64,000 nucleotides of DNA from Globisporangium splendens (lineage: Eukaryota > Oomycota > Peronosporomycetes > Pythiales > Pythiaceae), in the NCBI GenBank assembly GCA_006386115.1, contig VFIW01000006.1:1-64000 (forward strand), written 5' to 3'. Shown in pieces: positions 20,401-43,915 of the stretch. Positions within the stretch are counted from its first letter, which is position 1. Each line of letters begins with the position of its first letter. The notes below the pieces were generated by a model, which worked only from the letters and a program-made list of their open reading frames with translations, had not been told where the DNA came from and did not search any database. The position numbers were made by a program, and so were the translations under genes.

Positions 20401-21692
20401 TCAGAAAGCATATCTTGGTGAATACTGGACCGACGGAATGCATCAGCAAACTCGCTCGCGTGCTTTGGGTGATTCGGCAAGAGACTACCAACTCCGCCAG
20501 TCTCGTACTTGCGCTGCTCACTCGTTCCGAGATCAATCAGGAAGTCGGCCACATCGCGCTCTGGCGGGCAAACGAATCCCAAGCTTTCAAAGTGGCCAAG
20601 TACTCGTTCGCGAGGACCGTGGTACATGACTTCACCTTCGTTCAAGATCATCACGTAGTCGAACATGGCAAACACTTCTGGTGTCGGCTGGAGCAGCGAC
20701 ATGACTACGGTCTTGCGAAGCGTCTTGGCGATGTTTCTTTGGGTACTGACGATATCGAACGTCGCGGCGCTATCAAGGCCCGTACTGATCTCATCCATGA
20801 ACGCCACGTACTTCATGCCGAACTGCATTTCCCCCATGGTCACACGCTTGCGTTCACCGCCAGAGACACCACGAAGCATCGGGTCACCAATGACCGTGCC
20901 TTGGCAATCTTGAAGCCCCAGCTGCTCGATCACGATATCGGGAGAGTGTGCAAACATGGCTTGGGACGCGTCGGGAGCAGCTTTATTTTCTTCGGGAGTG
21001 CCGTTGGTCAGCAGTTCTTCGCCTTGTTGTTGAAGCTCACCACCCGAGAACATGTGAGCAAACTCGAAAGTCTCTTTGACCGTGAGGGTCGGGTGATGGT
21101 TATCTTCTTGAGGCACGAAACCAACAAACTGTGGCAGTCGCTTGATGATATCTTGTTGCAGTTGGCCATTGTACGTGATGTGCCCGTCGACTTGGATGTT
21201 CTTCTCCATCGGAAATCGTCCACTCAAGATCTTCATCAGTGACGACTTGCCCGAACCAGGCTGTCCAAGCACCAGAGTCATCGTGCCTGGCTTGAACACA
21301 GCGTTGATGTTCTTCAAGATCTCCTTGTTCACAACCGTTTCCTTTGCAAATAAGCCGTTGAGTCCAGCCTTGAGCTCGTTCGCGATTGTCGGGAGCTGCG
21401 ACTTGCTGCCATCTGCACCAGCAGCTAGCTTCGCGGTGACAGAGAGATCGTGGACACGAACCTCCATTTGTGGTGGATCTCGACCAAGGGTCGTGTCGAG
21501 CTTAGTCGCGATGTAATGATGCAGGGTGTTTGATCCGTGCGAAGTCAGGTCTTTGCCAGACCTATGCTGAAGCTGCTGTTCTAGATAAATTTGGCGATCA
21601 CTGGATTCCAAGCCGTTGGGAAGAATGTCATCGTTGCCTCCACTGTCATCGGGACTGACAGCCTGCAGAATTGGTATGCGAGACGTCGACAT
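17457..21692 (-). CDS. PDR/ABCG full-size ABC transporter, intact copy
   Basis: 1,411 residues, the normal full length for this family, in one exon. N-terminal cytosolic leader (about 100 residues), NBD1 with GQPGSGKSSLMK, VSGGERKRVT and MDEISTGLDSAATFD, membrane domain 1 of about six helices, NBD2 with GASGAGKTTLMD, SAERMKRLTIGVEL and LFLDEPTSGLD, then membrane domain 2 with a large extracellular loop before the last helix. It is expected in the plasma membrane as an ATP-driven exporter of lipophilic compounds. The N-terminus, unlike that of the left copy, is open. The 5' end (MSTSRIPILQAVSPDD) is shared in form with the broken start at 5415. The start is the first ATG of the frame. Confidence 0.92.
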   Translation of the reverse strand: MSTSRIPILQAVSPDDSGGNDDILPNGLESSDRQIYLEQQLQHRSGKDLTSHGSNTLHHYIATKLDTTLGRDPPQMEVRVHDLSVTAKLAAGADGSKSQLPTIANELKAGLNGLFAKETVVNKEILKNINAVFKPGTMTLVLGQPGSGKSSLMKILSGRFPMEKNIQVDGHITYNGQLQQDIIKRLPQFVGFVPQEDNHHPTLTVKETFEFAHMFSGGELQQQGEELLTNGTPEENKAAPDASQAMFAHSPDIVIEQLGLQDCQGTVIGDPMLRGVSGGERKRVTMGEMQFGMKYVAFMDEISTGLDSAATFDIVSTQRNIAKTLRKTVVMSLLQPTPEVFAMFDYVMILNEGEVMYHGPRERVLGHFESLGFVCPPERDVADFLIDLGTSEQRKYETGGVGSLLPNHPKHASEFADAFRRSSIHQDMLSELTAPVEPKLLDQVELHMDPTPEFHQSFWENIWTLTKREFLVLLRNKAFVIGRGLMVLIVALLNASTFYKFDPTNIQVVLCIIFIGAVFLSLGQMALIPMVMESRDIFYKQRGANFFRTSSYVLANAVSQIPLLVVEALLFGAIVYWLCGFTASASAFFTYEVLLLLTNMVFSAWFFFIASASPNFLTADPLATFTVLVFILFAGFVALKSQIPDFLIWLYWISPYSWSIRAIAVNEYRSSKYDVCTFGDIDYCAQFENKTMGQYYLSLFDMQSDKEWVTYGVIYLIAAYVVCLCCSIFVLENARYETPENVAATIKNSDAAEQGNYVIAESPKFSFTTARGCRFMKDRETAVAMPSPTHVVTPVTIAFNDLWYTVPQPNDPKQSIDLLKGISGYALPGTMTALMGASGAGKTTLMDVIAGRKTGGQARGKVLLNGHEATDLAIRRCTGYCEQIDSHSSASTFREALTFSAFLRQDSSIPDSQKYDSVNECMGLLDMHDIGDQIIRGSSAERMKRLTIGVELAAQPSVLFLDEPTSGLDARSAKLIMDGVRKVANTGRTIVCTIHQPSSEVFFLFDKLLLLKRGGETVFFGELGERCCNLVDYFQAIPGVVPLPHGYNPATWMLECIGAGVNNDSSNDIEFPKCFDGSEQKRALDNALTQQGVGRPAPGTPELLFSQKRAASSSVQAQFVIKRFFDLYWRTPDYNLTRLVLALVLALLFGLVFTEADYKLFQGITSGVNMIAVAMVFMGLISFDAIIPMTSIERASFYRERATGTYNVFWYLLGSTLAELPYVFATGLIFTAVFFPLVGFAGFGTAVVFWLNLSFVILYQAYLGQLLAYALPSAEVAVLVGMLVTSICFLFMGFVPPASAIPSGYKWLYNIVPHRYSLAVLVALVFGDCPSDTTFDPTTDIFINVGTELGCQPLQNTPIAYGNITVKEFIEDVFEMKHDDLWTNFVVVVGITVLFRVLALLSLRFINHRKS
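17517..21368 (-). repeat. right arm of a 3.85-kb inverted duplication (PDR transporter core)
   Basis: Mirror of 5741-9592; corresponding positions sum to 27109. Flanking sequence on both sides differs from the left copy at several percent or more, so the identity is confined to the coding core. Confidence 0.8.
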
Positions 21693-26126: not shown

Positions 26127-26777
26127 TGTAAAAGGGCGCTGTTCCAAACAGTCCCTTAAACACGGCACACACGCTTGTGCCAGAGGAAGCGTCTCCCGAC
26201 TTGGAGGGAGGAAGGAAGACTTGAGGGCTTGGTGGTAAAATTTGCAACTGAATTAAAATGCTTATGGTTCCTGACACTACATGTAAATGAACCCCAAGGG
26301 CTCCTAGAGGTTTTATAACTAAAACCTAAACATACACAATATAACCTATGAATATGATATATAAAACCTTGGGTACACTGAGGTTGAACCCACGAGATCT
26401 TCGAGAAGCTTGAACTTGAAGTTCCGTGGAAAATTCCCTGCAAAGTGATTGGCTACAGCCACTCACTTTAGGTGGCAGAGACACGTTGGTCTCATCACCA
26501 GTGCAGTTTCCCAAGTAGGAACCATCACTCAGTACTTGATTAGTACATGTATGTCATCACTCTGTACTGATTAGTACATGTGAACAACATTCTGCACTGA
26601 TCAGCACAGAGAGCGCTCGTGACTTCATGGGATGACGTCACATGTGCATGTGGGGAGTGTCGTACCGTAATCCCTTTGTTAATTGTCTCTCCACAATGCA
26701 CACTGAAGGTGGTGTGTGTCACACTAGATCTGAGAACAGATCCACCTTCATGTAATGGCTAGGTATAGCCCATTACA
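26127..26777 (-). repeat. LTR1, 3' LTR of B1
   Basis: 651 bp with TGTAA/TTACA ends. The U3 side (26531-26777) is unlike LTR2 and LTR3 and includes two copies of a near-palindromic GTACTxGATTAGTAC unit plus a third partial unit (about 26526-26610). One TGACGTCA palindrome lies at 26633-26640. Confidence 0.85.
26633..26640. promoter_or_regulatory. CRE-like palindrome TGACGTCA in LTR1 U3
   Basis: A perfect 8-bp CRE, the classic bZIP (CREB/ATF) binding site. It is followed by CA(C/T)GTGCATGTGGGG-like sequence shared with the other LTRs. Functional use is inferred from conservation in all three LTRs. Confidence 0.5.
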
Positions 26778-26790
26778 TCATCCCCTCCTT
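26778..26790 (-). promoter_or_regulatory. polypurine tract of B1
   Basis: Minus-strand AAGGAGGGGATGA directly beside the 3' LTR, the position expected for plus-strand DNA priming. Confidence 0.6.
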
Positions 26791-26853
26791 AAAGTCACAA
26801 GTACCTTGCGTACTTTTGCAGACCTTTCGGAGCAGTTCACTTTCCAATCGGCC

Positions 26854-27912
26854 ATGAAGCGACCAAGCGACCAAGTGAACCGTGAAGAACGTCCTTTGCC
26901 CAAGCGACAGCAGACAGCTCCAGAACTCTTCGACATATCTCCCATTCTGAAGAAGAAGGGGGATCTCGAGTTCTACAAGGAGCGGTTCTTCAGTTGGCGT
27001 CGGATCAACAATCGTGATCCGAACCAACCCATCGCAGCCCAGAGAGACTCATGGCGAACATTTGTTCGTCTTGAGAACGAGAACCAAATGGAGCGTCTTC
27101 TTCGTCGTGGCAACGCTCGTGCCGAAAGAAGAACTCCTGCTGACGACAGAGCGAATCCCAGCTCTGGTCGTCGTAGTGTCGCTCCTCGCGACGCTACAAG
27201 TGGTTCTCGTAGCTGCGGACCACGTCGGGAACATCAGACTCCATCGTCTGACGTGGTTCCCACGTGTCCGAGCTCGGTGGATATCCACGCCACCGAACTC
27301 TGTAGAAGCGTTGAGGACTCAACCGCTTCTTCCCACGAGTCTGTCGATCTTCATGATCAACAATCGACTCAACCACCCAGCGATGATCTCCCTGAGAGTC
27401 TATCAATGGGGGTGGGGCTGAACGCGAAAACGATTGAGCGACTCTGGAAGTGGAAGAGTGCTCATCACGCTCAGATTGAGACACTGGAAGTTCGCGATGC
27501 GATCCTTTCGGATCGGTGCGAGAGCCTCGAGGACCAAGTGAAGGAGCAAGAGTCGCGGATCGACTCGCTGACCTTTGGTCCCGCTCAGTATCGGGCTTTG
27601 GAGTCCCGTTTCGAGCAACGGTTCGAGCAAGTCCAGGGCGAACTTGAGCGACTCCGAAAGGCTGAGAAGGCTCGTGAAATGCATCACGAACGTCTATTGC
27701 GCTCTGTGGAAGAGGCAGGGACGGCTCTTGAGGTACTCCGCAAGGAGTATAACTCGCGCCTTCTCGTGCTGGAAGCTGTGAAGGAGGAGTCCTTCGATGT
27801 GCTTCAGCGCCTTTACGCTGAGAAGAATCTCCAAAGCGATGAGCTGTTTGCTCTTCGCAATCAAGTGGAGAGTCTTCAAGATCAGCTTGATCGTTTGCGG
27901 AAGATCTCGTAG
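26854..27912 (+). CDS. antisense accessory ORF of element B1, coiled-coil protein
   Basis: 352 residues on the strand opposite gag-pol, starting 77 bp inside the 3' LTR. The N-terminus MKRPSDQVNREERPLPKRQQ carries bipartite basic clusters typical of nuclear signals. A conserved block follows (SWRTFVRLENENQMERLLRR), then a variable Ser-rich middle. From about residue 190 to the end is a long coiled coil (AKTIERLWKWKSAHHAQIE onward). B2 carries the equivalent ORF at 33822-34871 with the same start context, nearly the same length (349 codons) and about 60-70 percent identity. Codons 1-113 lie beyond the pol stop, so pol cannot explain the open frame there. The rest overlaps the pol linker and chromodomain. 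The frame is also open upstream into the LTR (from 26755). No known family is recognised. Confidence 0.7.
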   Translation: MKRPSDQVNREERPLPKRQQTAPELFDISPILKKKGDLEFYKERFFSWRRINNRDPNQPIAAQRDSWRTFVRLENENQMERLLRRGNARAERRTPADDRANPSSGRRSVAPRDATSGSRSCGPRREHQTPSSDVVPTCPSSVDIHATELCRSVEDSTASSHESVDLHDQQSTQPPSDDLPESLSMGVGLNAKTIERLWKWKSAHHAQIETLEVRDAILSDRCESLEDQVKEQESRIDSLTFGPAQYRALESRFEQRFEQVQGELERLRKAEKAREMHHERLLRSVEEAGTALEVLRKEYNSRLLVLEAVKEESFDVLQRLYAEKNLQSDELFALRNQVESLQDQLDRLRKIS

Positions 27913-30900
27913 GATCAGCTGATCCGCTTGGAAGGTAAGGCTTTAGTCTACCCACATAAAATGTAGGGTGTAGACGCATGCGTGTAGGTATGTCTAGCGT
28001 GTAGGCATCACCATTGCATTTCACTACCTTGAACGGTCCAATGAACCTTGGCAGAAGCTTCGAGCTCCCCAAGTTGGACACTGCATGTTCAGGCAGGTTC
28101 GCCGTGCTAAGTAATACAAGATCATTGATCTTATATACTTGCTTGTTCTTCCTTCCGCTCTTGTCTGCTTGCTCCTTTTGCAGATCCTGAGCCTTCGCGA
28201 TTGCGTCTCGAACAAACCTCACAACGGCTTGTCTCCTCACAACAAAGTCATCGACTTGCTGTTCCTCACGACTTGTTAGGTCGTTGAGGGGTTTCATCGA
28301 GTCAAAATTTGCTTTTAACTCGGCAACAGCATTCAGGTCATACGACGACTGCGGCTTATTGCCTTTAGCCGTAGTCCCTCCCCCACTTAAGGTAGAGACC
28401 TCACCCATTATGGAAGCAGGCACTCGAGGGTGAATGCCATAGTTCACATAAAATGGAGAGTGACCCGTCGAGACATGCGTGGAGTTGTTCAACGCAAACT
28501 CTGCGAGAGGGAGAAACTCACTCCACTCTTTGAAAGACGTTGCGTAGCTGCGCAACACGTCTTCAAGGACACGATTCACTCGCTCTGTTTGACCATCCGT
28601 TTCTGGATGTGCCGCTGTTGACATGGCCAACTTGGTGTCCAGAAGTCCGAACAGTGCACGCCAAAACCTGGACGTAAACCGAGTGTCACGGTCAGACACG
28701 ATCTCAACGGGCAGGCCATGCAGACGGAATACGACGTCTACAAAGACCTTGGCCGCCATTTCGGCTGAGATCTTGTCCGAAACCGGCGCAAGATGGACCA
28801 TCTTGCTGAATCGGTCCACAAACACAAGGATGCCATTGCGTCCGTGTTTGTCTCGAGGAAGTCCGAATATGAAATCCATACTCACAGACTTCCAACTGTC
28901 CGAAGGGACAGCCAATGAACGAAGTGGTGCCTGAGTGGAACCAGAAGGGTTCACTCGTTGGCAGATCTCGCAAGTCCTCACATACTTGCGAACCCACTTG
29001 TACATGTGTGGCCAGTAGTAATCCCGGGAAAGGCTGAGAAACGTTTTCTCACGTCCGAGATGGCCACCCGAAGTACTGTCATGGTACTCATACAAGAGTC
29101 GATGACGCAGACCTTCGTCGTTGGGAACAACAACCCTTGCTGTATCCCCTTGTTCAACCGCATAGTACAACAACCCGTTGTGTACTCGGAAGCGGTGAAC
29201 TCGCGATCTTGTGCGTGACGGAAGACCTTGCAGTGCTTTGTCCGAAGGGTTTTTGAAATACTTCAACAAGTCCTGACATGTTTCGTCAGACTTGTACCCT
29301 TCGACAATGTCTTCTCGCACTGTAGTCGTAGCTTGCACTGCGATCGCTTGAACATCTTCGCAGAGTCGACACGCTCCGTCCGTGTCTTCACTCTTGGTCT
29401 TCGGATCATAGTCCGGACGTCTTGACAGCGCATCGGCTAAGATGTTCGTCTTGCCTGGCTTGTAGTGTACAACAAAGTTGTACTCTGCAAAGAAAGAGAA
29501 CCATCTCGCCATTCTTTGCGACAAGTGAGGAGTCTTTACCGCTGTACGCAGCGACGCATGATCTGTGTAGATCGCAAAGCGCTCCTCGCCAAGCAGGTAG
29601 ACACGGAACTTGACCAAAGAATACTTCATCGCAAGAAGTTCTTTGTCATGAACTGGGTAGTTCCGTTCTGCGGGTCGGAGTTGTCGTGACTGATACGACA
29701 CAACTCGCTCATGACCCTCATCATCGTGTTGCATCAACGCGCAACCGATGGCATAGTCGCTTGCATCGCAAACCACATGAAAAGGCTTGTCGTGGTTTGC
29801 AATTGCCAGCACGGGAGCTTCTCGCAAACTCCTCTTGACTTCGGCAAATGCCATTTGGTGGTCACTGGACCACTCCCACTCAATGTCCTTCTTCAGGAGC
29901 TGTGTGAGGGGTTGCACCAACGCTGCATAATTGCGCGTGTACTTGTGCAAGTCAGTTGGCCAGACCCGCCATTGTCGTAGCTGTTTGACGTTTCTGAGGC
30001 CGGCCAATCGTCACAGCTTTGACCTTCTTCCGGTCACCTCGAACGCCATGGCTTTCCCACACAGCATGCCGAGAACGGGGATCTCTGGTGGCAAGAAATA
30101 TCACTTCCTTCCGTTACGTAGAGCTTGTTCTCTCGCATGACCTGAAGACTTGACGTTGAATGGTCAAGATGAACATCAACGGTCAGACTTTTCACCCGTG
30201 TTTTACTAGAACAATATATCGTCAAAGTAACTCGGTGCAAACCCTCTCAATTGGACGAAGTAAATTCGTGCCATCCTATTGAAAGTCGCGGAGCGTTCTT
30301 CAAACCCGTGCATCACTAACCATCCCACATCATACCACTCGGGGTACTCACTGGCCGTTTAGTGTACATCACCTCCTCGCATTCGAATCTGATATCACCC
30401 CCATCTTTCAGATCGATAGCACTAAAGACGGTGCTGCCAACCATTCCATCAAGGATCATATCCTTGCGTGGAACCGGAGTTTGGGCTGGAATGGTAGCGT
30501 CGTTCAGCTTGTTGAAAGCGTGGACGATGCGCCAACCACCAGTTGCCTTCTTCACACAGAAGGTTGGGCTACAATGTGGAGACTTGCTCTCTCGCACATG
30601 CCCAGCCTTGGCACGTTGCGCAAAGAACTCGTCGATCGCAACGACTTGTTCTCTTGGCAACGGCCACTGTCGTGTGATACAATACTTCGTGCCAGGAAGT
30701 ATGTCAATCTCGTGACGAATGCCTCTATCGAATGGCAGTTCGTCCGGCACCTTGTCTGGGAATATGTCCTCATATTCCCTGGCAAGTTCATACACGGGGT
30801 TCGTTTTGAGAGCGTCCCATGACTGCTCCTCGAACCTCTCCTTCCGTGTCTTCTCATCGAACACTTCAGCCTCCGTTGCTGATACTGTGTTGATGTCTTC

Positions 30901-31952
30901 TGCATCGTCAATATCGACGATCATGCAGACCTGCAAAATTTCGCCTTTCGCTAGGCTACGCTTCAGCGTCTTCTTGCTCATCCATGGCAAGGAAATCAAC
31001 TCTTCGACTGAGCTTGGAGGATTTTCAATCTTCATGTGACGGATTACATCCACGTCACCATCTTCATTGTAGACCGCGATATTCGCAAACTCGCTTGAAA
31101 TGTCTTGTGCTTGGACACTTCCTTCGTCACCTTGACATGTACCTTGATCAGGGGCACACGGGACACTCTTCTTGCTGGTCTTCTTCTTCTTCTCTCGGGA
31201 TGGCTCTTCGGCTCTTTTCCCATTCGTTTCTTCCACGCACATCGCCTCGCTCTTAGGGTCGATGGCAAAGGAGACAGTCTTTTTCTGGCGCCTGACTGCT
31301 CCACCTCCAGTAGTCTTCTTCAAGATGGGTGCCGCTCGTGAACATGGGGGCCATCGCACACCGCAATATCACGAGGGTCATCTGGGATCTCTTCCACAGA
31401 TGTATACACCCACACCACTTCGTCCGTTGTTGTGCAGCACAAGTCAACATCACGTGACTTGTCAACGGAGATCTTCATCCAGTCAATGCTAGGTTGATAA
31501 CGCTTCAACCATGGCATGCCCAGAATCAGATCAAACTTGTCATCGAGGTCGAGTAAAATGAACTCGTCTTCACCTCGGAAATCTTCACACTTCATTGCCA
31601 AGCGCACCACGCGCTTTGGCATCTTCACAGTTGACCCGTTGGCCAACCGGATAACCATCGTCTTGTCTTCATTCGCATCAGGCATTGGTACTTTATGCCT
31701 GACGATCACTTCATTTCGAACAAAGTTGTTCGACGCACCAGTGTCAACCAAAGCACGTAGAGGCGTTGCAATACCGTCTACATGAGCTTTGAGAACGATC
31801 AAACTTGACGTTTGACTGACACTGTTCTCCTTCGTGGAAACTGCATGTGCATCATGCACATTGGGGCCAGAGTCCTGTGTTTCCACAACATCCACAGTCC
31901 TCTTTTCCGGGCCAGTAGGAGGCCCCGCCCCTACTGTCCATTCCCGTTTTTT
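27194..31952 (-). pseudogene. Pol of element B1 (protease, RT, RNase H, integrase, chromodomain), decayed
   Basis: Reads from the frameshift site near 31950 down to 27194. Protease has RALVDTGASNNFV. RT begins around GGWRIVHAFNKLNDATIP, but its catalytic part (about 30010-30400) is scrambled by several frame changes, although a YFDD codon run survives near 30212-30222. RNase H (DASDYAIGCALMQHD, IYTDHASLR), the integrase HHCC zinc finger (HLGREKTF to CEICQR), the D,D35E core (MDFIFGLPRD; SDRDTRFTSRFW; TDGQTERVNRVLED) and a C-terminal chromodomain (RFYRVRWRGYPPSSDTWEP) are open in one 937-codon frame. The Pol C-terminal linker and chromodomain overlap the opposite-strand ORF. With RT broken, the copy cannot move by itself. 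Confidence 0.85.
31896..31952 (-). promoter_or_regulatory. -1 frameshift signal of B1: slippery site plus hairpin
   Basis: On the minus strand AAAAAAC (31952-31946) is followed, after a 9-nt spacer, by a stem with arms CAGTAGGGGC and GCCTCCTACTG and a GGG loop. The single unpaired T is a bulge. It occupies the same position as the signal in B2, and one stem pair differs in a compensatory way (G-C here, A-U there). Confidence 0.65.
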
Positions 31953-32049
31953 GGCCCAGGTGACCGGTCGAACCGACGACCGTAAGAACGATCGTGGTTG
32001 TTCGAACGAGCACCCTGTGGCGTTTGCCGACCCGGCAAAGACACTTTGC

Positions 32050-32986
32050 AGTTCCGAGCAATGTGACCCGGCTTCCCGCAACGGAAACACTTCCCATCGT
32101 TGCGAGGACGCTCATTTCAAGGCGTGGAAATGTACGAGATGTCCATAGGCTCGGGACCATCATGCGCAACATTCGATTGCCGCATTGGTCTCGACGCAAA
32201 CCCTTGGAACTTGGCTTGCTTCATGCTAAACTCTTCTTGCATGGCACGTTCAATGGCTTCGTCCAGCGTCTTGGGATACTCACGGAACAGTTGGTTCCGA
32301 ATCGGACCATCGTTCAGACCCACCATGAACGTCACAACTTGCGTCGAAACGTCAATCGGCTCGTCAACGATGCTCGATACCAAGTAGCGAGCACGTTGTG
32401 CATACGAGTGAAGGTCGAAACGGCCTTGACGAAGCTTGAGGAACTCGGCGCGCGCACGGAACTCGCTCTGCGGAGGTTCAAACGCCTTCTTGAGTTCGGT
32501 CTTGAAGTTTTCGTAGCTGGGGAAGCAGTTTAGATCCGCTAAACGCTTGCCATACGCCCAGCTCTTCGCACGACCCACAAGGTTGGACATCGCGAACAAC
32601 ACTTGCTGCGAAGGGTCTCGCAGTTGTCTTGCAGTGATAGCTGCATCCAACTCGACGAACCATCGCGAGAGGGGTTCGTTCTCTCCGCCGCGATACGGAG
32701 AGACGTCCAGCTTCAATGGCACCGTCCTAAATGAGGAAACAGGGGTTGCGACCTGCTTCCGGGAGGACATGATCTCGTGGTGCATGAAGCTGACCACCGC
32801 GCTCTTCTGGTCTTCCGGAGACGCCGATCGAAGCAGACTGACCACAGCAGCCTCTCCGATGACATCTCGCATGCGCTCAAGCGCCATCCACTCATGAGAA
32901 GACAAGTGAGGGAAACCCTCAATAGTCAACTCGACAGTTTCCGGTACTGCTGGACCGAGTGGGGTTCCTGTAGCATCCATGTCCAC
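32050..32986 (-). pseudogene. Gag of element B1
   Basis: Starts at 32986 (MDMDATGTPLGPAVPETVEL) and is open to 32117. It holds a gypsy Gag core: LDVSPYRGGENEPLSRWFVE, KKAFEPPQSEFRARAEFLKL, FMVGLNDGPIRNQLFREYP. The CCHC zinc knuckle (CFRCGKPGHIARN) is encoded at about 32055-32100 but in another frame, so a frame change near 32117 breaks the protein before the knuckle. B2 Gag keeps these parts in one frame. Confidence 0.8.
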
Positions 32987-33091
32987 GACAAGGATGCTCG
33001 CAGGGTCTTCAGTCTTGGACAGGAATGCGCGACGTGCTCAAAGCCGCGTCGTCAAACCTTTTCGCTTCACTGGGTCGCTGGAAGGACCGCT

Positions 33092-33104
33092 CGAAGTGCT
33101 ACCA
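33092..33104 (-). promoter_or_regulatory. primer-binding site of B1
   Basis: Minus-strand TGGTAGCACTTCG two bases from the end of LTR2, the same core as in A and B2. Confidence 0.65.
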
Positions 33105-33106
33105 GG

Positions 33107-33745
33107 TGTAAGAGGGCGCTGTTCACAACAGTCCCTTAAACACGGCACACACGCTTGTGCCAGAGGAAGCGTCTCCCGACTTGGAGGGAGGAAGGAAGAC
33201 TTGAGGGCTTGGTGGTAAAATTGCAACTGAATTAAAACGCTTATGGTTCCTGTCGCTACATGTAAATGAACCCCAAGGGCTCCTAGAGGTTTTATAACTA
33301 AAACCTAAACATACACAATAAAACCTATGAATCTGATATATAAAACCTTGGGTACACTGAGGTTGAACCTGCGAGATCTTCGAGAAGCTTGAACTTGAAG
33401 TCCCGTGGAAAATTCCCTGCAAAGTGATTGGCTACAGCCACTCACTTTAGGTGGCAGAGACACGTTGGTCTCATCACCAGTGCAGTTTCCCAAGTAGGAA
33501 CCATCACTCACGTGTCTAGAGTACTGTTGTGCGTAATCACGCCGAATCTCAATGATTGCGAGCGACCAACACTCAACTCAGACACAGATTGCTCTGACGT
33601 CGGACGATGACGTCACCTGTGCATGTGGGGATCACTTTTATGTGTTTCACCCAATATCTTCGCACCCACAATGCACTTCCACAAGGTGGTGTGTGACACA
33701 CACAAAGAGCCACCTTGCATGTAATGGCAGCCTGAGCCCATTACA
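33107..33745 (-). repeat. LTR2, chimeric middle LTR shared by B1 and B2
   Basis: 639 bp. From 33107 to 33489 it follows LTR1 (for example GGGCGCTGTTC, the 50-bp block around GTGCCAGAGGAAGCG that LTR3 lacks, and TTTCCCAAG). From 33511 to 33745 it follows LTR3 almost base for base and is unlike LTR1. The switch lies in the shared 33490-33510 stretch (CAAGTAGGAACCATCACTCA). In element orientation the U3 is B2-type and the R-U5 side is B1-type. Confidence 0.85.
33608..33615. promoter_or_regulatory. CRE-like palindrome TGACGTCA in LTR2 U3
   Basis: A perfect 8-bp palindrome. A second CRE at the position used in LTR3 is broken here by one base (TGACGTCG at about 33595-33602). Confidence 0.5.
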
Positions 33746-33758
33746 TCATCCCTCCCTT
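33746..33758 (-). promoter_or_regulatory. polypurine tract of B2
   Basis: Minus-strand AAGGGAGGGATGA beside LTR2, matching the B1 tract in form and place. Confidence 0.6.
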
Positions 33759-33821
33759 AAAGTTCCATCACGGACTTTACTTCTTTCGGAAGAGGCACCC
33801 GCTCTCACTTTCCAATTGACC

Positions 33822-34871
33822 ATGAAGCGATCAAGCGACCAAGTGAAGCGCGAAGAACAGCCCGAGCCGAAGCGGCAGCGGACGACTCCCGGCTTGTACG
33901 ACATCTCCGCTATTCGCAAGAAGCGTGGAGGACGTCGGTTCTACAAGGAGTTGTTCTTCCTTTGGCGCAAGATGTCCGGCAGCGACGATCCTGGCCAGTC
34001 CAGCACAGCGAAGCTCGAGTCGTGGAAGACGTTTGTCCGACTCGAGAACGAGAATCTTGTCGAGCGTTTGCTAGGGAACCTAGGAGGCACGCTCGAGAAC
34101 GACCATAAAGAGCTTGGCTCTCGTCGTTCTAGTGCTCGCGAGAGCACTACAAGCTCTGTTCGTAACTGTGAACCACGTCGGGGACATCAGACTGAAGAGT
34201 CTCTCGAGGTTCCCACGTGTCCGAGTCCGGCGGATAGCCAAGCCACCGTACTCTGTAGAAGCGTTGACGGTTCAACGACTTCTCTCCTCGACGACGAGTC
34301 GATCGATCCTCGTGATCGACTATCGACTCAACGATCCAACGACGCTCTCCCTGATGATCGATCAGAGGAGGTGGGGCTGAACGCGAAAACGATTGAGCGA
34401 CTCTGGAAGTGGAAGAGTGCTCACCACGCTCAGATCGAGGCTCTTGAAGTTCGCAACGCGGTACTCGAAGACCGGTGCGAAAGCCTCGAAGACCGGTTGA
34501 AGGAACATGAGTCGAAGATCGACTTGCTCTTCGATGGTCTTGCCCAGCGTTCGGCAATGGAGTCACATTTCGAACAGAGGTTCGAGAAGATTCAAGCCGA
34601 GCTTGAACGACTCCAGAAGGCTGAGAAAGCTCGCGATGCGTATCACGAACGTCTACTGCGCTCTGTGGAAGAGGCAGGGACTTCTCTTGAGATACTTCGG
34701 AAGGAGTATCATGGTCGCCTTCTCGCGTTGGAGACAGTAAAGGACGAGTCCTTTGATGTGCTTCAGCGCCTTTATGCCGAGAAGAAGCTCCATGGCGATG
34801 AGTTACAGACTCTTCGCGAGCTGGTGGAGCGACTTCAGGATCGACTTGATCGTCTGCCAAAGGCTCTGTAG
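33822..34871 (+). CDS. antisense accessory ORF of element B2, coiled-coil protein
   Basis: 349 residues, opposite strand to gag-pol, beginning 76 bp inside the 3' LTR with the same ATG context as in B1 (TTTCCAAT then CC-ATG). The N-terminus MKRSSDQVKREEQPEPKRQR keeps the basic clusters. The block SWKTFVRLENENLVERLL and the C-terminal coiled coil (AKTIERLWKWKSAHHAQIEA to LQDRLDRL) are conserved with B1. In codons aligned over 34620-34802 against 27661-27843 I count 12 synonymous and 13 replacement codons among 61. Many replacements are D/E, K/R or aliphatic exchanges, as expected for a constrained protein. The frame is open back to 33552, inside the LTR, so a longer form is possible. It overlaps the pol 3' end at 34147-34871. 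Confidence 0.72.
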   Translation: MKRSSDQVKREEQPEPKRQRTTPGLYDISAIRKKRGGRRFYKELFFLWRKMSGSDDPGQSSTAKLESWKTFVRLENENLVERLLGNLGGTLENDHKELGSRRSSARESTTSSVRNCEPRRGHQTEESLEVPTCPSPADSQATVLCRSVDGSTTSLLDDESIDPRDRLSTQRSNDALPDDRSEEVGLNAKTIERLWKWKSAHHAQIEALEVRNAVLEDRCESLEDRLKEHESKIDLLFDGLAQRSAMESHFEQRFEKIQAELERLQKAEKARDAYHERLLRSVEEAGTSLEILRKEYHGRLLALETVKDESFDVLQRLYAEKKLHGDELQTLRELVERLQDRLDRLPKAL

Positions 34872-37800
34872 GGTTCGCTGACCCACTTGGAAGGTAAGGC
34901 TTTAGTCTACCTACATAGAACGTAGGGTGTAGTCGCATGCGTTTAGGAATGTCTAGTGTGTAGGCATCACCATTGCATTTAACCACCTTGAACGGTCCAA
35001 TGAACCTTGGCAGAAGCTTCGAGCTTCCCAAGTTGGACACTGCATGTTCAGGCAGGTTCGCCGTGCTAAGTAATACAAGATCATTGATCTTATATACTTG
35101 CTTGTTCTTCCTTCCGCTCTTGTCTGCTTGTTCCTTTTGCAGATCCTGAGCCTTTGCAATTGCGTCTCGAACAAACCTCACAACGGCTTGTCTCCTCACA
35201 ATAAAGTCATCGACTTGCTGTTCCTCGCGACTTGTCATGTCGTCTAGAGGTTTCATCGAGTCAAAATTCGCTTTTAACTCTGTGACAGCATTCAGATCCG
35301 ACTGTGGCTCCTTAGCCATAGTCTCTCCCCCACTTAAGGTAGAAACCTCTCCCACTAGTGACGCTGGCACTCTCGGGTGGAGTCCGTAGTTCACATTGAA
35401 CGGGGTATGACCTGTCGAGACATGCGTGGAGTTGTTCAACGCAAACTCTGCGAGAGGGAGAAACTCACTCCACTCTCCGAAAGACGTCGCATAACTGCGC
35501 AACACGTCTTCAAGGACACGATTCACTCGTTCAGTTTGACCGTCTGTCTCTGGGTGTGCTGCTGTTGACATGGATAGTTTTGCATCCAAAATGCCAAACA
35601 GAGTTCGCCAAAACCTAGACGTAAACCGAGTATCACGATCCGACACGATCTCCGAGGGCAGACCATGTAGACGGAACACCACGTCTACAAAGACTTTCGC
35701 AGTCATCTCTGCCGAGATCTTATCCGAGACCGGAGTAAGATGCACCATCTTACTAAATCGGTCCACAAACACCAGGATGCCATTCCTGCCGTGTTTGTCT
35801 CTTGGAAGTCCGAATATGAAATCCATACTCACAGACTTCCAACTGTCCTGAGGGACAGGTAATGAACGAAGTGGAGCCCGAGTAGAGCCGGATGGCTTAA
35901 CTCTTTGGCACACTTCGCAAGTACGCACATACTTGCGAACCCACTTGTACATGTGAGGTCAGTAGTAATCTCGAGACAAGTTGAGAAACGTTTTCTCACG
36001 TCCGAGATGGCCACTCGAAGGACCGTCATGATACTCGTACAAGAGTCGATGACGCAGACCTTCGTCGTTGGGGACAACGATCCTCGCTGGATCCCCTTCG
36101 TCAACCGTATAGTACAGCAGCTCATTGTGCATGCTGTAACGGTGAACACGCGATCTTGCTCTTGGTGGGAGGCTTTGGAGTGCCTTCTCTGAGGGATTCT
36201 TGAAATACTTGATCAGTTCTCGGCATGCTTCGTCTTGCTTGTATCCCTCAGTGATCTCTTCTTGGACTGTGCTTGTCACTCCCGTAGCAATCGCGTTGAC
36301 GTCTTCACAGAGTCGTCACGCTCCGTTCGTGTCGTCACTCTTGTTCTTCGGATCATAGTCCGGACGTCTTGACAGCGCATCGGCAAGAATGTTTGACTTG
36401 CCGGGCTTATAATGTACAACAAAGTTGTACTCAGCGAAGAAGGAAAACCATCTTGCCATTCTTTGCGATAGGTGAGGCGTCTTTACAGCTGTCCGCAGTG
36501 ATGCGTGATCAGTGTAAATAGCGAACTGCTTTTCACCAAGCAAATAGACTCGGAACTTTGCCAATGCATACTTCATGGCCAATAGTTCCTTGTCATGGAC
36601 CGGATAGTTCCTCTCTGCGGGCCTGAGTTGTCGTGACAACTCTTTCTTTGCCCTCATCATCGTGTTGCATCAGTGCACACCCGATGGCATAGTCGCTCGC
36701 ATCGCAGACTACATGGAACGGCTTCTCATGGTCTGCGAGAGCTAGGACAGGAGCTTCTCTTAAGCTCTTCTTTACTTCGGCAAACGCTGCCTGATGTTCC
36801 TCTGACCATTCCCACTCATTATCTTTCTTCAAAAGACTCGTGAGGGGTTGCACTAACACTGCATAGTTGCGCGTGTATTTGTGCAAATAGTTGGCCAAAC
36901 CCAGCCACTGACGTAGCTGTTTGACGTTCTGAGGAATAGGCCAATCGTCGATAGACTTGACCTTCTCAGGATCGACCCGAACGCCATTCTTGCCAACAAA
37001 GCAACCGAGTATAGGGATCTCGGGGGCGAAGAAGATGCATTTCTTCAAGTTAGCGTACAGTTTGTTCTCACGCATAACTTGAAAGACTTGACGAAGATGT
37101 TCAAGGTGAACATCGACATCTTTCTTCCCTTCCGAGGCCTTGCTGTGAACGAATATGTCGTCAAAGTAGCTCGGTGCAAACTCTCTCAATGGACGAAGTA
37201 CATTCGCGACCATTCTGTTGAAAGTTGCTGGTGCGTTCTTCAGACCTTGTGGCATCACCATCCACTCCCACAGCATACCACTAGGGGTGCTAACTGCTGT
37301 AAATGGTACATCGCTCTCACGCATTCGAATCTGATAGAACCCGTCTTTCAGATCGATCGCGCTAAAGACAGTGCTGCCAACCATTCCATCAAGGATCATA
37401 TCCTTGCGTGGAACTGGGGTCTGAGCAGGTATGGTCGCATCATTCAATTTGTTGAATGCATGAACAATGCGCCAACCGCCTGTGGCCTTCTTCACACAGA
37501 AGGTGGGACTACAGTGCGGAGACTTGCTCTCGCGCACATGGCCAGCCTTCTGTCGCTGCGCGAAGAACTCGTCGATCGCATCGACTTGTTCCTTCGGTAG
37601 CGGCCATTGCCTCGTGATACAGTACTTCGTTCCCGGAAGTACATCTATCTCGTGACGAATGCCTCTGTCCTGCGGCAATTCGTCCGGCACTTTGTCCGGA
37701 AATATGTCCGCATATTCCTTGACAAGTCCATACACGGGGTTTGTCTTTAGAGCGTCCCACGACTGCTCATCAAACCTCTCCTTCCGTGTTCTCTCATCTA

Positions 37801-38839
37801 ACACTTCCGCAGTGTTGATGACATCGTCGGCAACTTCATCGACGATCGCACAAATTTGCGAAATTTCGCCTTTCGCCAGGCTACGCTTAAGCGTCTTCTT
37901 GCTCATCAACGGCAAGGAAATCAATTCTTGAGCCAGACTTGGAGGATTTTCCACTTGTACGTGACGCACTATCTGGCTGTCACCTTCTTCATTGTAGACT
38001 GCGACGTTCACATATTCGCTTGAAGTGGCTTGTTCTTGTCGCTTCACTTCATCTTCTGCCTTTCTTGTGTCTTGATCAGGGACGCTTGCAGATCTTCGTT
38101 CTTCTTCGTCGGTCTTCTTGTCTTCTTTCCTTCTGCCAGAGCGGAACTCTTCATCGCTCTTGGCTACAGGAGTAGTCTTTTTCTGGCGCCTGACTACTCC
38201 ACCTCCAGTGGTCTTCACGGGCTTGTCATTTGAGTGTGAGGGGCCATCGCACGCCTGACTCTCATTAGACACATCTTCAACAGATGCATATGCCCAAATC
38301 ACCTCTCTTGCTGCCTGGCAGCTGAGGTCTTCGTCGACTTGCTTGTCGACGCTGATCTTCTTCTTCTTCCAGTCAATGCTCGGTTGGTACCTTCTCAACC
38401 AGGGCATTCCCAGAATCAGATCAAACTTGTCATCGAGGTCGAGTAGAATGAACTCATCTTCGCCTCGGAAATCATCACATTCGATTGCCATACGCAACAC
38501 GCGCTTAGGCATCGTCACTTTCGATCCATTCGCCAAGCGAACGATCATTTCCTTGTTCGAGATAGGCAGGTCCAAACCTTGCCTTCTCACCACTTGTGTG
38601 CGGACAAAATTGTTCGACGCACCAGTGTCTACAAGAGCCCGTAGAGGTTCTGAGTAACCATCTACCTTAACCTTGTGGACTATCAAGGCTGGCTCTTGCT
38701 CGACACGCTCACATCTGTTCGCGGAAACTTCATGTGCATTGCGCACACCGGGGCAAGAGTTCTGCGCTTCCACGACATTCACAGAACTCTTTGTTCGCCC
38801 AGTAGGGAGCCCCGCTCCTACTGGTCGTTCCCGTTTTTT
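34147..38839 (-). pseudogene. Pol of element B2, nearly complete with a few lesions
   Basis: After the -1 frameshift site at 38833-38839, one frame runs through protease (ALVDTGASNNFVRTQV), RT (FSAIDLKDGFYQIRM; SYFDDIFVHSKA) and the start of RNase H down to 36593. There a loss of about 14 nt relative to B1 shifts the frame. RNase H resumes (36316-36660) and meets a TGA (near 36316), then the zinc finger part (35959-36279) ends in TGA for an expected Trp codon (about 35956). The rest, 34147-35952, is open with the integrase core (MDFIFGLPRD; SDRDTRFTSRFW; TDGQTERVNRVLED) and the chromodomain (RFYRVRWLGYPPDSDTWEP). The catalytic residues of all enzymes are still present. Confidence 0.88.
38799..38839 (-). 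promoter_or_regulatory. -1 frameshift signal of B2: slippery site plus hairpin
   Basis: In the gag zero frame the minus strand reads A-AAA-AAC (38839-38833), a textbook X-XXY-YYZ heptamer, 27 nt before the end of gag. After an 8-nt spacer comes a hairpin, CCAGTAGGAGC, loop GGG, GCTCCCTACTGG, with one bulged base. Moving back one base at the heptamer enters the long pol frame, which continues KRERPVGAGLPTG. The pol frame lacks its own ATG before protease. Confidence 0.75.
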
Positions 38840-39861
38840 GGCTGTTGGGAACGCTCGAATCGCCGGCCTCTGCCTGGTCGATTCGATTGCGAACCGTGTG
38901 TCGCTCGCTGGCTTGGTAAGGACACCTTGCAATTTCTTGCGATGTGACCGGGCTTGCCACAACGGAAACACTTCCCGTCATTGCGTGGGTATCTGCTTGT
39001 AGTCGCATCGGCATACGAGATGTCCATCGGTTCTGGACCGTCGTGTGTGACTGCGTGTTGTCGAACAGGACGAGGGCCGAAACCGTTGAACTTGGCTTGC
39101 TTGATGCTGAATTCTTCTTGCATCGCTCGCTCGATGGCTTCATCCAGCGTCTTGGGGTACTCGCGGAACAGCTGGTTCCGAATTGGACCATCATTGAGCC
39201 CTGCCATGAATGTCACAACTTGCGTTGAGGCATCAATCGGCTCATTCACGATACTTGACACGAGGTATCGTGCTCGTTGAGCGTACGAGTGTAGGTCGTA
39301 TTTACCCTGACGAAGCTTTAAGAACTCAGCGCGAGCCCGAAATTCGCTCTGCGGAGGCTCAAAAGCCTTCTTCAGCTCTCGCTTGAAGTCGTCCAGGTCG
39401 TAGAAGCAATGTGGCTCCGCCAATCGCTTCCCATACGCCCAACTCTTGGCTCGACCCGCAAGGTTTGACATCGCAAACAACACTTGCTGCATTGGGTCCC
39501 GTAGTTGTCTTGCAGTGATTGCTGCATCCAACTCAACGAACCATCTCGCTAGAGGTTCGTTCTCTCCGCCACGGTACGGAGATACATCGAGCTTCAGAGG
39601 TGCCACTCTCATCGTCGTGACAGGAGTTGCGGGCTGTCGATGAGAGTTCATGATCTCGTGATGCATGAAGCTCGTAGCCGCGTTCCTCTGCTCATCCGGC
39701 GACGCTGATCTCAGCAAACTGATCACAGCCGCCTCACCGATGACCGCTCGCATACGCTCGTGGGCTGCCCACTCGTGGCTCGACAAATGAGGGAAGTGCT
39801 CATTCGTCAGCTCCACGGTCTCTCCAGGCATCGAGCCCATCGGCGTCTCAATCCCTTCCAT
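38818..39861 (-). CDS. Gag of element B2
   Basis: 347 residues starting MEGIETPMGSMPGETVEL, preceded by the primer-binding site and a leader of about 105 nt. The gypsy Gag core (LDVSPYRGGENEPLARWFVE, KKAFEPPQSEFRARAEFLKL, FMAGLNDGPIRNQLFREYP) is followed by one CCHC zinc knuckle, CFRCGKPGHIARNC, and a basic Arg-rich tail. It forms the particle shell and binds the RNA. It appears intact and overlaps pol by 150 or so nt in the -1 frame. Confidence 0.88.
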   Translation of the reverse strand: MEGIETPMGSMPGETVELTNEHFPHLSSHEWAAHERMRAVIGEAAVISLLRSASPDEQRNAATSFMHHEIMNSHRQPATPVTTMRVAPLKLDVSPYRGGENEPLARWFVELDAAITARQLRDPMQQVLFAMSNLAGRAKSWAYGKRLAEPHCFYDLDDFKRELKKAFEPPQSEFRARAEFLKLRQGKYDLHSYAQRARYLVSSIVNEPIDASTQVVTFMAGLNDGPIRNQLFREYPKTLDEAIERAMQEEFSIKQAKFNGFGPRPVRQHAVTHDGPEPMDISYADATTSRYPRNDGKCFRCGKPGHIARNCKVSLPSQRATHGSQSNRPGRGRRFERSQQPKNGNDQ

Positions 39862-39953
39862 TGTTTCTCACAATCGGACAGGGGTCTTGGAGTGTCCGCG
39901 CACGCTACACAAGCGGCCTATGCAGACTCTTGACTTGGTCGTTGGAAGGACTA

Positions 39954-39966
39954 CGAAGTGCTACCA
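39954..39966 (-). promoter_or_regulatory. primer-binding site of B2
   Basis: Minus-strand TGGTAGCACTTCG, two bases after the end of the 5' LTR, identical to B1. Confidence 0.65.
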
Positions 39967-39968
39967 GG

Positions 39969-40575
39969 TGTAAGAGGCTATCCGAGACAGCCTCAAACAC
40001 GGCACGCACGCTTGCGCTTGAAGAGGAAGACTTGAGGGGAACTTGGCAAAAATGCAACTGAATTGAAATGAGCTTATGGTTCCTGACACTACATGTAAAA
40101 CACCACTAGGGCTCCTACACGTTTTATAACTAAAACCTAAACATGCACAATAAAACCTATGAATCTGATATATAAAACCTAGGGTACACTGAGGTTGAAC
40201 CCAGGGGATCTTCGAGAAACTTGAACTTGACGTCCCGTGGAAAATTCCCTGCAAAGTGATTGGCTCGCGCCACACTTTAGGTGGCAGAGACACGTCGGTC
40301 TCATCACCAGTGCAGTTTACCAAGTAGGAACCATCACTCACGTGTCTAGAGTACTGTTGTGCGTAATCACGCCGAATCTCAATGATCGCGAGCGACCAAC
40401 ACTCAACTCAGACACAGATTGCTCTGACGTCAGACGATGACGTCACCTGTGCATGTGGGGATCACTTTTATGTGTTTCACCCAATACCTTCGCACCCACA
40501 ATGCACTTCCACAAGGTGGTGTGTGACACACACAAAGAGCCACCTTGCATGTAATGGCAGCCTGAGCCCATTACA
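39969..40575 (-). repeat. LTR3, 5' LTR of B2
   Basis: 607 bp, TGTAA/TTACA ends. It lacks the block of about 45 bp after GCACGCACGCTTG that LTR1 and LTR2 have. The U3 side (40330-40575) is almost identical to LTR2 33511-33745. Confidence 0.85.
40425..40445. promoter_or_regulatory. two CRE-like palindromes in LTR3 U3
   Basis: TGACGTCA at 40425-40432 and again at 40438-40445, 13 bp apart centre to centre, so both could be bound on nearly the same face of the helix. Candidate bZIP sites. Confidence 0.5.
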
Positions 40576-43500
40576 AAAGTGGGTGACACTCAGGATCTAA
40601 TCCTAGGCAAACCGTTCTACCATTGGTATGATCCACAAATCAACTATCGCGCTCATGAAGTATTTTTCAAACCAGAAGTAGACGCCACTCTGGCTATTCA
40701 AGTATCCAGCGCCGAGTTCAAGCAAAAGCTCAAGAAACAAGAATACGAAGAAGTATATCGAGTTAAGATTTGTCAAGTTGCAACCGAGATTATCAAGACT
40801 CCACTAGATGTGCAGAAACTGATCAATAAATACCAAGATGTTTTCCCGGAAGCGCTACCGGATGGATAGCCTCCTCGACGACGTGTCGAGTTTGAACTGT
40901 GTATGAGACCAGACGCCACGCCAAGTAACCGTCCACCGTTTCGACTCTCCAAGATGGTGCAAGATGCGTTAGACGTCTTCGTCGAAGAAAAGCTCAAGAA
41001 AGTCTGGATTGAATTGTCCGACTCGTCATGGGTGTCAAATGTGTTCGGCATCCCAAAGAAAGACCCAAGTTCCGGCAAACAAACGTCAAGATCGGAGTGG
41101 ATCCGCTCAGGCAATTCTACTCTACCGATTCGTTGGGTAATTGATTACCGGTACGTCAACTCGCAAACGGTAGTCCCGAAGATCCCGTTGCCACGAATCG
41201 AAGAGCTCTTTGATAAGATGCAAGGTGCATCAGTATTTTCGGTTTTAGATCTCGCTCAGGGTTACCATCAAATGCGAGTCTCACCGGAATCGCGCAAGTA
41301 CACTGCATTTCGCACACACTCAGAGACCTATCAATGGTGTGTTGCGCCAATGGGCTTAGCGGGAATGCCAGGCGTATGGTCACGTCTTATGCGCATTCTG
41401 TTCGGAAAATACCCGTTCATCGTCGTGTATCTCGACGACATTTGTGTCTTTTCCACCACCATGGAAGATCATGTCAAGCATTTGGATGTCCTGTTTGAAG
41501 TACTGCGTCGTGAGAAATAATATGCTCATGAAGCGAAATGTCACTTTGCTTCAACTTCTGTCAACTTCCTCGGACACACCATCTTTGCTCAAGGACTTGC
41601 GGTCGACACGAAGAAGACTGACGCTATCGCGAAATGGACAACTCCCACAAATCAAAAGGAATTGCTGAGTTTTCTCGGACTTGCAGGATATTATCGCCGT
41701 TTTGTCTGCAACTTTGCAACGCTCGCATTGCCATTGAGCTCGCTGATGAAGAAAGACACCAAGTGGGAATGGAATGAACCGCAGCGAATGGCTTTTAATG
41801 CACTGAAGGATGCGCTTCAGCGAGCACCTGTGCTTAAACTGCCTGACTTTGATCGTGAATTTACTGTCACGACCGATGCTCCAGGGCATTGTGTTGGTGG
41901 TGTACTCTCGCAAAAATATGGCTCCGCGGATCATCCAATCGCGTTTTACTCCAAGAAGCTGGGCACGCACGAACTCAATTGGCCAACGCACGAGAAAGAA
42001 CTTTTTGCCATCAAGATGGGATTGGAGAAATGGCGTCACTATCTTTACGGTAGACCCTTTATCCTATTTACTGACAACAGTGCATGTTCATGGCTGTTGC
42101 ATCATACCAAAGTATCCGCCAAACTCGCGCGTTATTTGACGTTCTTTGCGCAGTTCAATTTCCAGATCCATCACGTCAGTGGGAGCTTAAACGCCGTTGC
42201 AGACGCACTCTCACGCCAGCCACAAAACGTCGGTTCGATTCAATTTCATCGCGGCACTGCCGACTGCCGCCCACACGCGCTCAAATATCGTAGTACCTTT
42301 CGAGCCACGACCATGCCGAAAGAAGTTGCTGGGGGAGTGTCTGTGCCTCAAATTCATTCCGCCATGGCCGCGTCATACAGTTCAGTATCTCTCGCACCTG
42401 CCGAGCGCAATGCTTTCATCAGCGCTTATAAAAAGGATAAGAAGTTTCGCGACGCATGGGAAAACCAAGACACGTCAGGTAAGTTCGTAAAGATGGATGA
42501 GCTGCTCTATCTCCGCACGCAGAATAACACTCTTCGTTTGTGTGTACCTGAGAATTATCAACTTCGCACGAAGATCATCGCGAGTTTCCATGATTCAGCC
42601 ATCGCAGCGCATCCAGGTATCCGTCGAACATACCTCCGAATTGTGCAATGGTACTATTGGTAGAGTATAGAAAAGACATCCATGACTACGTCAGCAGCTG
42701 TGAGACATGTGCAAGATGGAAGTATAGCAATGCAAAGAAGAATGGCAAGCTGATTCCGATCGCTATCCCAGAGGAATGCTGGGAAGTTGTTTCAATGGAC
42801 TTTATCACCAGAATCGAATGGATTCGATGCGATTTTCACAGTCGTCGACAAACTCTCCAAGCGAGCCAAGTACGTCGCAGTCAAGACTACCGACGACGCA
42901 GAAAAAATTGCCCACGTCTTCTTCGATAACGTCGTTCGCCACCACGGCATGCCAGCTGTGATCATAAGCGATAGGGATCCGAAGTTCACGTCGCACTTTT
43001 GGCGCTCGTTAGCGAAGATTATGGGAATCAAGTTGAATATGACCACGTCACATCGTGCCCAAGCTGATGGTCAAACTGAACGACAAAACCTGATATTGGA
43101 AGACGCTCTTCGGTGCGCGACATCGTACCACGGTCGTGACTGGTCAGAAAAACTGGCAACGACAGAGTACGCTCACGCAACATTAACCAGCGCTTCAACT
43201 GGACTTTCGCCGTTTGAAATCGACACTGGACGTAAGGAGCATCATCCGGTGGGTCTACCCGCAGCAAGTAATATAAGCAAACGCAAAGAAACAACCGATC
43301 TTGCTGAGATTGCAAAAACCTTCCACGATGAGAGAGAAAAGATAATTGACAAAGCGGAGAAGCAACTTAAGCAAGCACAAGAGTCTCAGAAACGCTACTA
43401 CGACCAAAAGCGAAGCAACGTCACATTCAAGACTGGAGACTTAGTGATGCTCGACACACGTCGCATGTCGCTTCAACACGCGGCACAAGACATCGAAGTG

Positions 43501-43915
43501 AAAAGAGCCAAACTTGCGGCAAGGAAGATTGGACCGTTTCCGATTGAGAAGATGATCGACGACAACGTCGCCAAGTTAAAACTGCCAAGTCGCATGAAGA
43601 GGATGATTCCGTCGTTTAACGTTGACATCTTATCTCACTATGTGCCGAATCATGACCGCTTCAAAACACGACTGCTCCCGAAAGCATCACGCGTCTACAT
43701 TGATGAAGATACCGGCGACGAGATGTATATCGTCGAGAAGTTACTTCGCCAACGCCGAGTAAACCGCAAGACGCAATGGTTGATAAAGTGGCACGGCTAT
43801 CCTGAGAACGAAGCCACTTGGGAAAATGAAGACAACGTCAAAAACGTCTCCCATTGGAATGTTCTCATCGGAGAATATCAACAGCTCCAACGAGAAGTCA
43901 ATCGCGGGAGGATGT
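40576..43915 (+). pseudogene. Pol of element A (protease end, RT, RNase H, integrase, chromodomain)
   Basis: Resumes in the C-terminal part of protease (DLILGKPFYHWYDPQINY). RT shows RWVIDYRYVNSQTV, FSVLDLAQGYHQMRV and VYLDDICVF. RNase H has LPDFDREFTVTTDA and FTDNSACSWLL. The integrase finger (HPGIRRTYL to CETCARW), the D,D35E core (SMDFIT; SDRDPKFTSHFW; ADGQTERQNLILED) and a chromodomain (WLIKWHGYPENEATWEN) follow. Lesions are TAG at 40867, TAA at 41518, TAG at 42661 with a frame change, and a compensating frame change near 42790. The final stop TAA falls inside the 3' LTR. Confidence 0.88.

Follow-up and report, generated by a model that had tools for sequence, protein, structure and literature searches.

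An antisense protein gene probably interlocked with pol in chromodomain Ty3/gypsy elements of the oomycete Globisporangium splendens

Introduction

Ty3/gypsy elements of plants are described as carrying antisense accessory ORFs (aORF-3R), examples being Grande gene23, RIRE2, Retand (TRP28) and PvRetro13. These ORFs are placed between pol and the 3′ LTR, a nuclear role has been proposed for them, and some contain SMC-like stretches (PMC7264820, PMC11963269). Retand is called a non-chromovirus (PMC11963269). Among fungi, brtn is the antisense gene of the Boty elements of Botrytis cinerea (Zhao et al., 2011, as cited in PMC7264820 and PMC8365987), and HBZ is mentioned as an antisense case in the same literature (PMC11963269).

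Here we compare with these systems a stretch of 64,000 nt, hereafter the window, located on contig C162 of the 53.3 Mb G. splendens genome. A preliminary description of the window had proposed that two diverged gypsy elements each encode a conserved protein antisense to gag-pol. We consider it likely that chromodomain Ty3/gypsy elements of this oomycete carry a selected antisense protein gene interlocked with pol, most probably encoding a nuclear, trans-acting accessory protein. The ORF resembles the plant aORF-3R, as these are described, in lying antisense to gag-pol at the 3′ end and in being kept in most copies, and differs from them in that it overlaps the pol of a chromodomain element over two thirds of its length. 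In B1, codons 1–113 alone lie between pol and the 3′ LTR and the rest overlaps pol. The ORF would thus be like aORF-3R in its working but, lying mostly over pol, stands outside them in the strict positional sense.

Results

On the minus strand of the window, two Ty3/gypsy elements (B1 and B2) lie head to tail (Table 1). The B1 pol piece matches, in order, the Pfam families PF17917, PF17921, PF00665, PF24626 and PF00385, that is, RNase H precedes integrase and a chromodomain follows integrase, the order found in chromodomain Ty3/gypsy elements. The LTRs have TG...CA ends, with a polypurine tract, seen by eye, just inside the 3′ LTR, and the pol linker of B1 is Ser/Pro/Arg-rich, also by eye. As pol is interrupted in both elements, neither window copy is itself autonomous. 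The middle LTR of the pair (26127–40575) is a hybrid, resembling the B1 LTR over the first ~360–420 aligned positions and the B2 LTR thereafter. The outer 5-bp flanks do not match each other, and the pair therefore looks like a product of LTR–LTR recombination, not two simple insertions. A third, more distant gypsy element with a short linker adjoins B2 in the opposite orientation (41662–43917).

Table 1. Coordinates of the antisense ORFs and of the elements that carry them (window positions unless another locus is named)
Feature	Coordinates	Strand	Remarks
B1 3′ LTR	26127..26777	-	TGTAA...TTACA as read on +
Polypurine-tract-like stretch after B1 3′ LTR	about 26778-26794		by eye
INR-like motif before B1 ATG	26837..26843	+	TCACTTT, 17 nt before ATG; motif match
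B1 antisense ORF	26854..27912	+	352 aa; open from ATG to stop
B1 N-terminal helical domain	26929..27129	+	predicted, about residues 26-92, wholly outside pol; AlphaFold2 block pLDDT about 71-88
B1 antisense coiled coil	27394..27906	+	predicted, residues 181-351; hydrophobic period and AlphaFold2
B1 pol piece	27194..30007	-	RNase H, integrase, SH3_Tf2-1, linker, chromodomain
B1 pol chromodomain	27200..27379	-	pol residues 877-936; Pfam PF00385, E 8e-12
B1 pol linker	27380..27934	-	SH3_Tf2-1 to chromodomain, pol residues 692-876
Shared hybrid LTR	33107..33745	-	B1 5′ LTR and B2 3′ LTR
INR-like motif before B2 ATG	33805..33811	+	same motif as in B1
B2 antisense ORF	33822..34871	+	349 aa; open from ATG to stop
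B2 pol piece	34147..35952	-	integrase, SH3_Tf2-1, linker, chromodomain
B2 5′ LTR	39969..40575	-	
Lineage D antisense ORF	L081:189-1799		536 aa; same phase as B; 378 codons outside pol

Both ORFs of about 350 codons reported earlier are present and uninterrupted. The B1 ORF starts 76 nt inward of its 3′ LTR, and B2 has the same layout. Pol stops on the opposite strand at 27194 (B1) and 34147 (B2), and it is true for B1 that the first 113 codons lie past the pol stop, as had been pointed out. The wording "antisense to gag-pol" holds for the linker and chromodomain at the C-terminal end of pol but not for the whole of gag-pol. ORF position 1 lies over pol position 1, position 2 over 3 and position 3 over 2, a phase given as sas11 in the OLGenie nomenclature (PMC7531306).

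An open frame such as this could be a by-product of the codons that pol uses and of how young the copies are. Chance antisense ORFs of 390 aa do exist inside two ABC-transporter genes of the window (20070–21242 and 5867–7039), so that ORF length alone proves little and the evidence has to come from substitutions and copies. The ABC-transporter pair (5654–9652, plus strand; 17457–21692, minus strand) is part of a large interrupted inverted duplication (5654–21692) with near-identical genes in inverted order, which also includes a reductase-like pair, recognised by eye (10277–11323, minus strand; 12199–13245, plus strand).

The motif TCACTTT found upstream of both start codons fits the oomycete INR core promoter motif YCAYTYY (PMC3599244). 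Among the 78 loci taken for copy comparison, which are not independent of each other, it stands at −17 in 71 copies, at −25 in 2, and is absent in 5; an FPR-like stretch with 1–2 mismatches (by eye) follows 2 nt after it. No INR-like motif was seen before the start of the corresponding ORF in lineage D (100 nt, by eye) or lineage E (150 nt), both described below.

With B1 as query, 106 of 115 scored places in the genome lacked an in-frame stop and 9 had one (best 115 of 486 candidates); with B2, 99 of 116 places were free of stops and 17 were not (best 116 of 479 candidates). The two lists overlap and some places are partial and, since the best-scoring candidates alone were scored, decayed copies are under-represented. 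Stops or frameshifts in most copies had been named as an outcome that would speak against the gene; among these best candidates most places are stop-free, and the antisense ORF at the 3′ end is retained in most of the copies scored, as in the plant aORF-3R. Seventeen aligned loci combine two N-terminal types with three coiled-coil types (a, that of B1; b; and c, that of B2) in mosaic fashion. Many copies are near-identical, which is compatible with a mere by-product. One in-frame stop is present in 8 of the 78 loci. Five of these (L032, L040, L049, L055, L076) have the same stop, a TGA that replaces CGA at codon 72; this codon is part of the most conserved motif and is CGN in the other copies. 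These five form no clade and are not mutual nearest relatives; the sharing is due to recurrent mutation or to spread by recombination or gene conversion. This means either that some copies can do without the protein in cis or that this CGA is a site of repeated mutation.

Selection was measured as omega from pairwise counts between diverged types, with bootstrap 95% ranges in parentheses and the pairs L001–L031, L001–L066 and L066–L031 given in this order. Antisense omega was 0.41 (0.26–0.64), 0.30 (0.14–0.56) and 0.48 (0.28–0.77) outside pol, and 0.33 (0.21–0.52), 0.41 (0.27–0.64) and 0.38 (0.24–0.56) over the pol linker. Over the chromodomain it was 2.30, 0.98 and 1.90, with ranges that all include 1. 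Across all 12 pairs, values were 0.20–0.70 outside pol and 0.63–3.55 over the chromodomain, and over the linker 0.33–0.42 in 11 pairs and 1.06 in one pair with few differences. Between B1 and B2, 176 linker codons hold 53.3 synonymous and 61.7 nonsynonymous differences (dN/dS 0.33, bootstrap 95% 0.21–0.52), which bears out the synonymous excess of the preliminary description. A polymorphism test used the 30 top protein-score matches per family, a choice that favours low pN/pS.

Dual-frame site classes in 8 pairs gave, for the linker, an NN/SN ratio of 0.42–0.59 in the ORF and an NN/NS ratio of 0.74–1.63 in pol, which by this measure is under no clear constraint there; for the chromodomain, NN/NS in pol was 0.07–0.57 and the ORF ratio was mixed, 0.38–1.56. 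Among pol-nonsynonymous changes in the linker, antisense-silent ones were commoner (Fisher p 6e-6, 5e-3 and 5e-4), and Fisher tests of the chromodomain classes gave 0.048 and 0.039 in two pairs. As read from these substitutions, purifying selection acts on the antisense frame both in the N-terminal part that does not overlap pol and opposite the pol linker, and pol is the selected gene in the chromodomain stretch. The earlier suggestion of selection on the antisense protein is thus upheld outside pol and over the pol linker, by both omega and site classes and again in lineage D, but not over the chromodomain, where the constraint is on pol. Since the preferred strand flips at the chromodomain border, a positional mutation bias is unlikely as an explanation; with the antisense frame selected over the linker and pol over the chromodomain, the two genes are interlocked. 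Selection can be read segment by segment in this way thanks to the several hundred scored places (some partial), the diverged families and the non-overlapping part.

Judging by the same measures, the pattern is repeated in full in lineage D and, for the outside-pol and chromodomain part, in lineage E. The pol of L081, from lineage D, is 59% identical to B pol over 716 residues, and the D antisense ORF matched 81 places, of 135 candidates. Six diverged copies (L083–L088) were compared with L081, L080 and L082 being too close to inform, and gave omega values of 0.40–0.56 for codons 1–214, 0.24–0.36 for codons 215–378, 0.88–3.34 over the chromodomain and 0.18–0.41 over the linker (the range for L083 includes 1). 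Among these six, a single in-frame stop is present in three copies and two stops in another, and the frame changes in L088. In L080, pol changes frame at the start of the chromodomain (after PPPAPPLRDSEG it differs from L081), and the antisense ORF has a frame shift nearby.

A conserved segment of the D antisense protein aligns with the N-terminal domain of the B protein (LYDVSTI...EEFYIDLFHSMR...WGAFV in D, LFDISPI...EFYKERFFSWRR...WRTFV in B). By hhalign the match has E 2e-4 to 7e-4, probability 27–45% and score 28.5–29.9, as against scores of at most 19.1 in 60 column shuffles (one of three set-ups); plain BLAST gives E 0.13. The whole-length comparison (E 1.3e-5, probability 80%) includes the stretch facing the chromodomain, which is kept similar by pol. 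The profile matches make it probable that the D and B antisense proteins are homologous.

Lineage E (L090/L091) has a 511-aa antisense ORF from ATG in the same phase as B, with 112 matches (110 of 174 candidates scored). Its C-terminal end lies over a long linker and resembles a coiled coil (period 3.55, power 6.9). Between E1 and E2 (L092), omega was 0.33 (0.19–0.49) outside pol and 2.33 (1.21–6.59) over the chromodomain, the linkers being too similar to tell; E1 and the closer L093 gave 0.49 (0.24–1.01) and 1.30, with an uninformative linker. No homology was detectable between the E and B antisense proteins. Two short-linker gypsy copies, the one at 41662–43917 of the window and L089 (1525 nt), whose chromodomain-like ends were recognised by BLAST to B and by eye, respectively, contain no antisense ORF of at least 100 aa over linker and chromodomain. 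This fits a long linker that accompanies the antisense coiled coil, in a small sample (n = 2).

With these lineages, a by-product of pol becomes a practically negligible explanation. It would have to account for 113 (B), 378 (D) and 176 (E, tested piece) codons outside pol, with omega there of 0.30–0.48 in three B comparisons, 0.24–0.56 in six D copies and 0.33 between E1 and E2; under pol-only constraint, moreover, pol position 3 would vary most, which is not so over the B linker. Alternatively, the function could reside in the antisense RNA, through double-stranded RNA or interference with sense transcription, and the open frame could be incidental; antisense transcripts of other elements may act so (PMC7264820). 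Codon-phased antisense selection where pol is absent or under no clear constraint would be unexpected for an RNA, and we hold this possibility to be hardly credible. We favour a selected antisense protein.

AlphaFold2 was run on B1 with an 18-sequence alignment (pTM 0.28). Residues 1–25 are predicted to be disordered and to be followed by helices at 29–35, 38–51, 60–75 and 79–92, a second disordered stretch (92–180, pLDDT below 50) and a single helix (181–351; block pLDDT 89–98 except at the two ends, 64 and 83). Modelled alone, the N-terminal domain again has helices 38–51, 60–75 and 79–92, with pLDDT about 77–88 in residues 31–80 and pTM 0.53. Most invariant columns of the 18 aligned sequences fall in this domain, which holds the invariant residues W48, W67, F70, V71, L73, E74, N75 and E76. 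In the C-terminal 166 residues, hydrophobic positions recur with a spacing of 3.5 (power 10.6 for B1 and 15.4 for B2) and, together with the predicted helix, this agrees with the C-terminal coiled coil of the preliminary description. The disordered hinge is predicted to face the chromodomain (B1 codons about 115–176) and the long helix the pol linker. Ordered domains of the one protein thus appear to face disordered segments of the other, the disorder being a matter of prediction for the antisense protein and of appearance for the pol linker.

No Pfam family scored above the cut-off for the antisense proteins of B1, B2, D, the E piece and the relatives P0072 and P0077, and no solved fold stood out in comparisons with the PDB, where profile matches are mostly to coiled coils of unrelated proteins. 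For PF04195 (TRP28), hmmscan gave no match in B1 and B2 at E 0.1, or in D, the 383-aa E piece, P0072 and P0077 at E 0.5; a remote relationship to the Retand TRP28 proteins may nevertheless exist. A protein search in which the best 8000 candidates were scored returned 84 relatives, 65 of them G. splendens gene models (FI667) and 19 jgi/ena/lgn entries of 43–86% identity on short contigs, probably metagenomes; no other named species was among them. In the public gene model P0069 the antisense ORF is fused with sense pol, and in P0068 with a Copia-type protein; both are probably annotation artefacts across nested or neighbouring elements.

The protein-like order of its domains and an origin otherwise unexplained would suit a host gene that was captured in reverse by an ancestral element and now imitates a host chromatin protein or acts as its decoy. 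We regard such a capture as very improbable: two protein searches (8000 candidates scored each) yielded no named host gene, the entries being 'hypothetical' G. splendens models, a single Copia-like fusion and others with a generic name or none, and Pfam and the PDB gave no family.

Discussion

We suggest that an antisense mRNA would be initiated in the 3′ LTR or else at an INR-type core promoter shortly before the ATG. Its product would begin with a basic, nuclear signal-like N-terminus, followed by a small helical domain, a flexible hinge and a coiled coil through which it oligomerises. Its most likely role would be that of a nuclear accessory factor that acts in trans and controls either transcription of the element or its integration at the nuclear stage. 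Action in trans fits the finding that copies with a codon-72 stop, and others whose pol is broken, have survived.

LINE-1 ORF1p is a coiled-coil protein that offers a comparison of the chaperone or particle type. The antisense protein could be real and yet, instead of regulating transcription, have a structural role or assist replication, for instance as a nucleic-acid chaperone or a component of the particle, or act in nuclear import. Its weak PDB profile matches include coiled coils of LINE-1 ORF1p (best E 0.003), along with many unrelated ones, its N-terminus is basic, and a review of the plant elements also treats import of the pre-integration complex (PMC7264820). On the other hand, Pfam recognised no RNA-binding domain, and expression from its own antisense start would decouple the protein from gag-pol, which suits a regulator better. 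We think this alternative rather unlikely, yet worth keeping in mind; a regulator of transcription or nuclear integration would be our first choice and a particle or replication accessory our second.

HBZ of HTLV-1 is a bZIP protein. Like the G. splendens ORF, it is encoded on the antisense strand at the 3′ end of a retroelement, has a coiled coil, and would have a similar role. Unlike HBZ, B1 and B2 are without a bZIP basic region beside the coiled coil: Pfam gave no bZIP match in either (E 0.1), and the helix is preceded by residues that are not basic. A bZIP_1 match below threshold (E 0.13) does lie in the coiled coil of one relative, P0077. The role of the protein would be analogous to those proposed for the plant antisense accessory ORFs and for HBZ.

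Overlapping antisense genes are difficult to establish, and the reality of HIV-1 asp has been disputed for decades. The asp gene resembles the present case as an antisense gene over a retroviral gene (env) that is judged by dual-frame selection, and differs in frame, asp being in sas12 and the G. splendens ORF in sas11 (PMC7531306). In contrast to asp, the G. splendens gene has a non-overlapping part, itself under selection. Compared by description only, brtn is alike in being an additional gene that runs antisense in an LTR element, and in that its host too is a filamentous plant pathogen. Antisense accessory ORFs are thus known in plants, fungi and retroviruses, and the oomycete host and the reciprocal overlap appear to be new. 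The preliminary description knew of none in oomycetes, and we too found no description in the open-access literature searched.

We tentatively propose, as a possibility we would put at a little short of even, that the ancestor of a clade of oomycete chromoviruses (at least lineages B, D and E) already had the antisense gene, that the long disordered linker exists because the opposite strand encodes a coiled coil, and that two selected proteins have been interlaced since the common ancestor. The finding bears on why some chromovirus integrases have very long linkers, and on whether antisense accessory proteins arose more than once in the retroelements of plants, fungi, oomycetes and animals. 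In public annotation, copies appear as host 'hypothetical proteins', which inflates gene counts. As the constrained strand switches at domain boundaries, these elements offer a clean test case of two selected proteins in one stretch of DNA.
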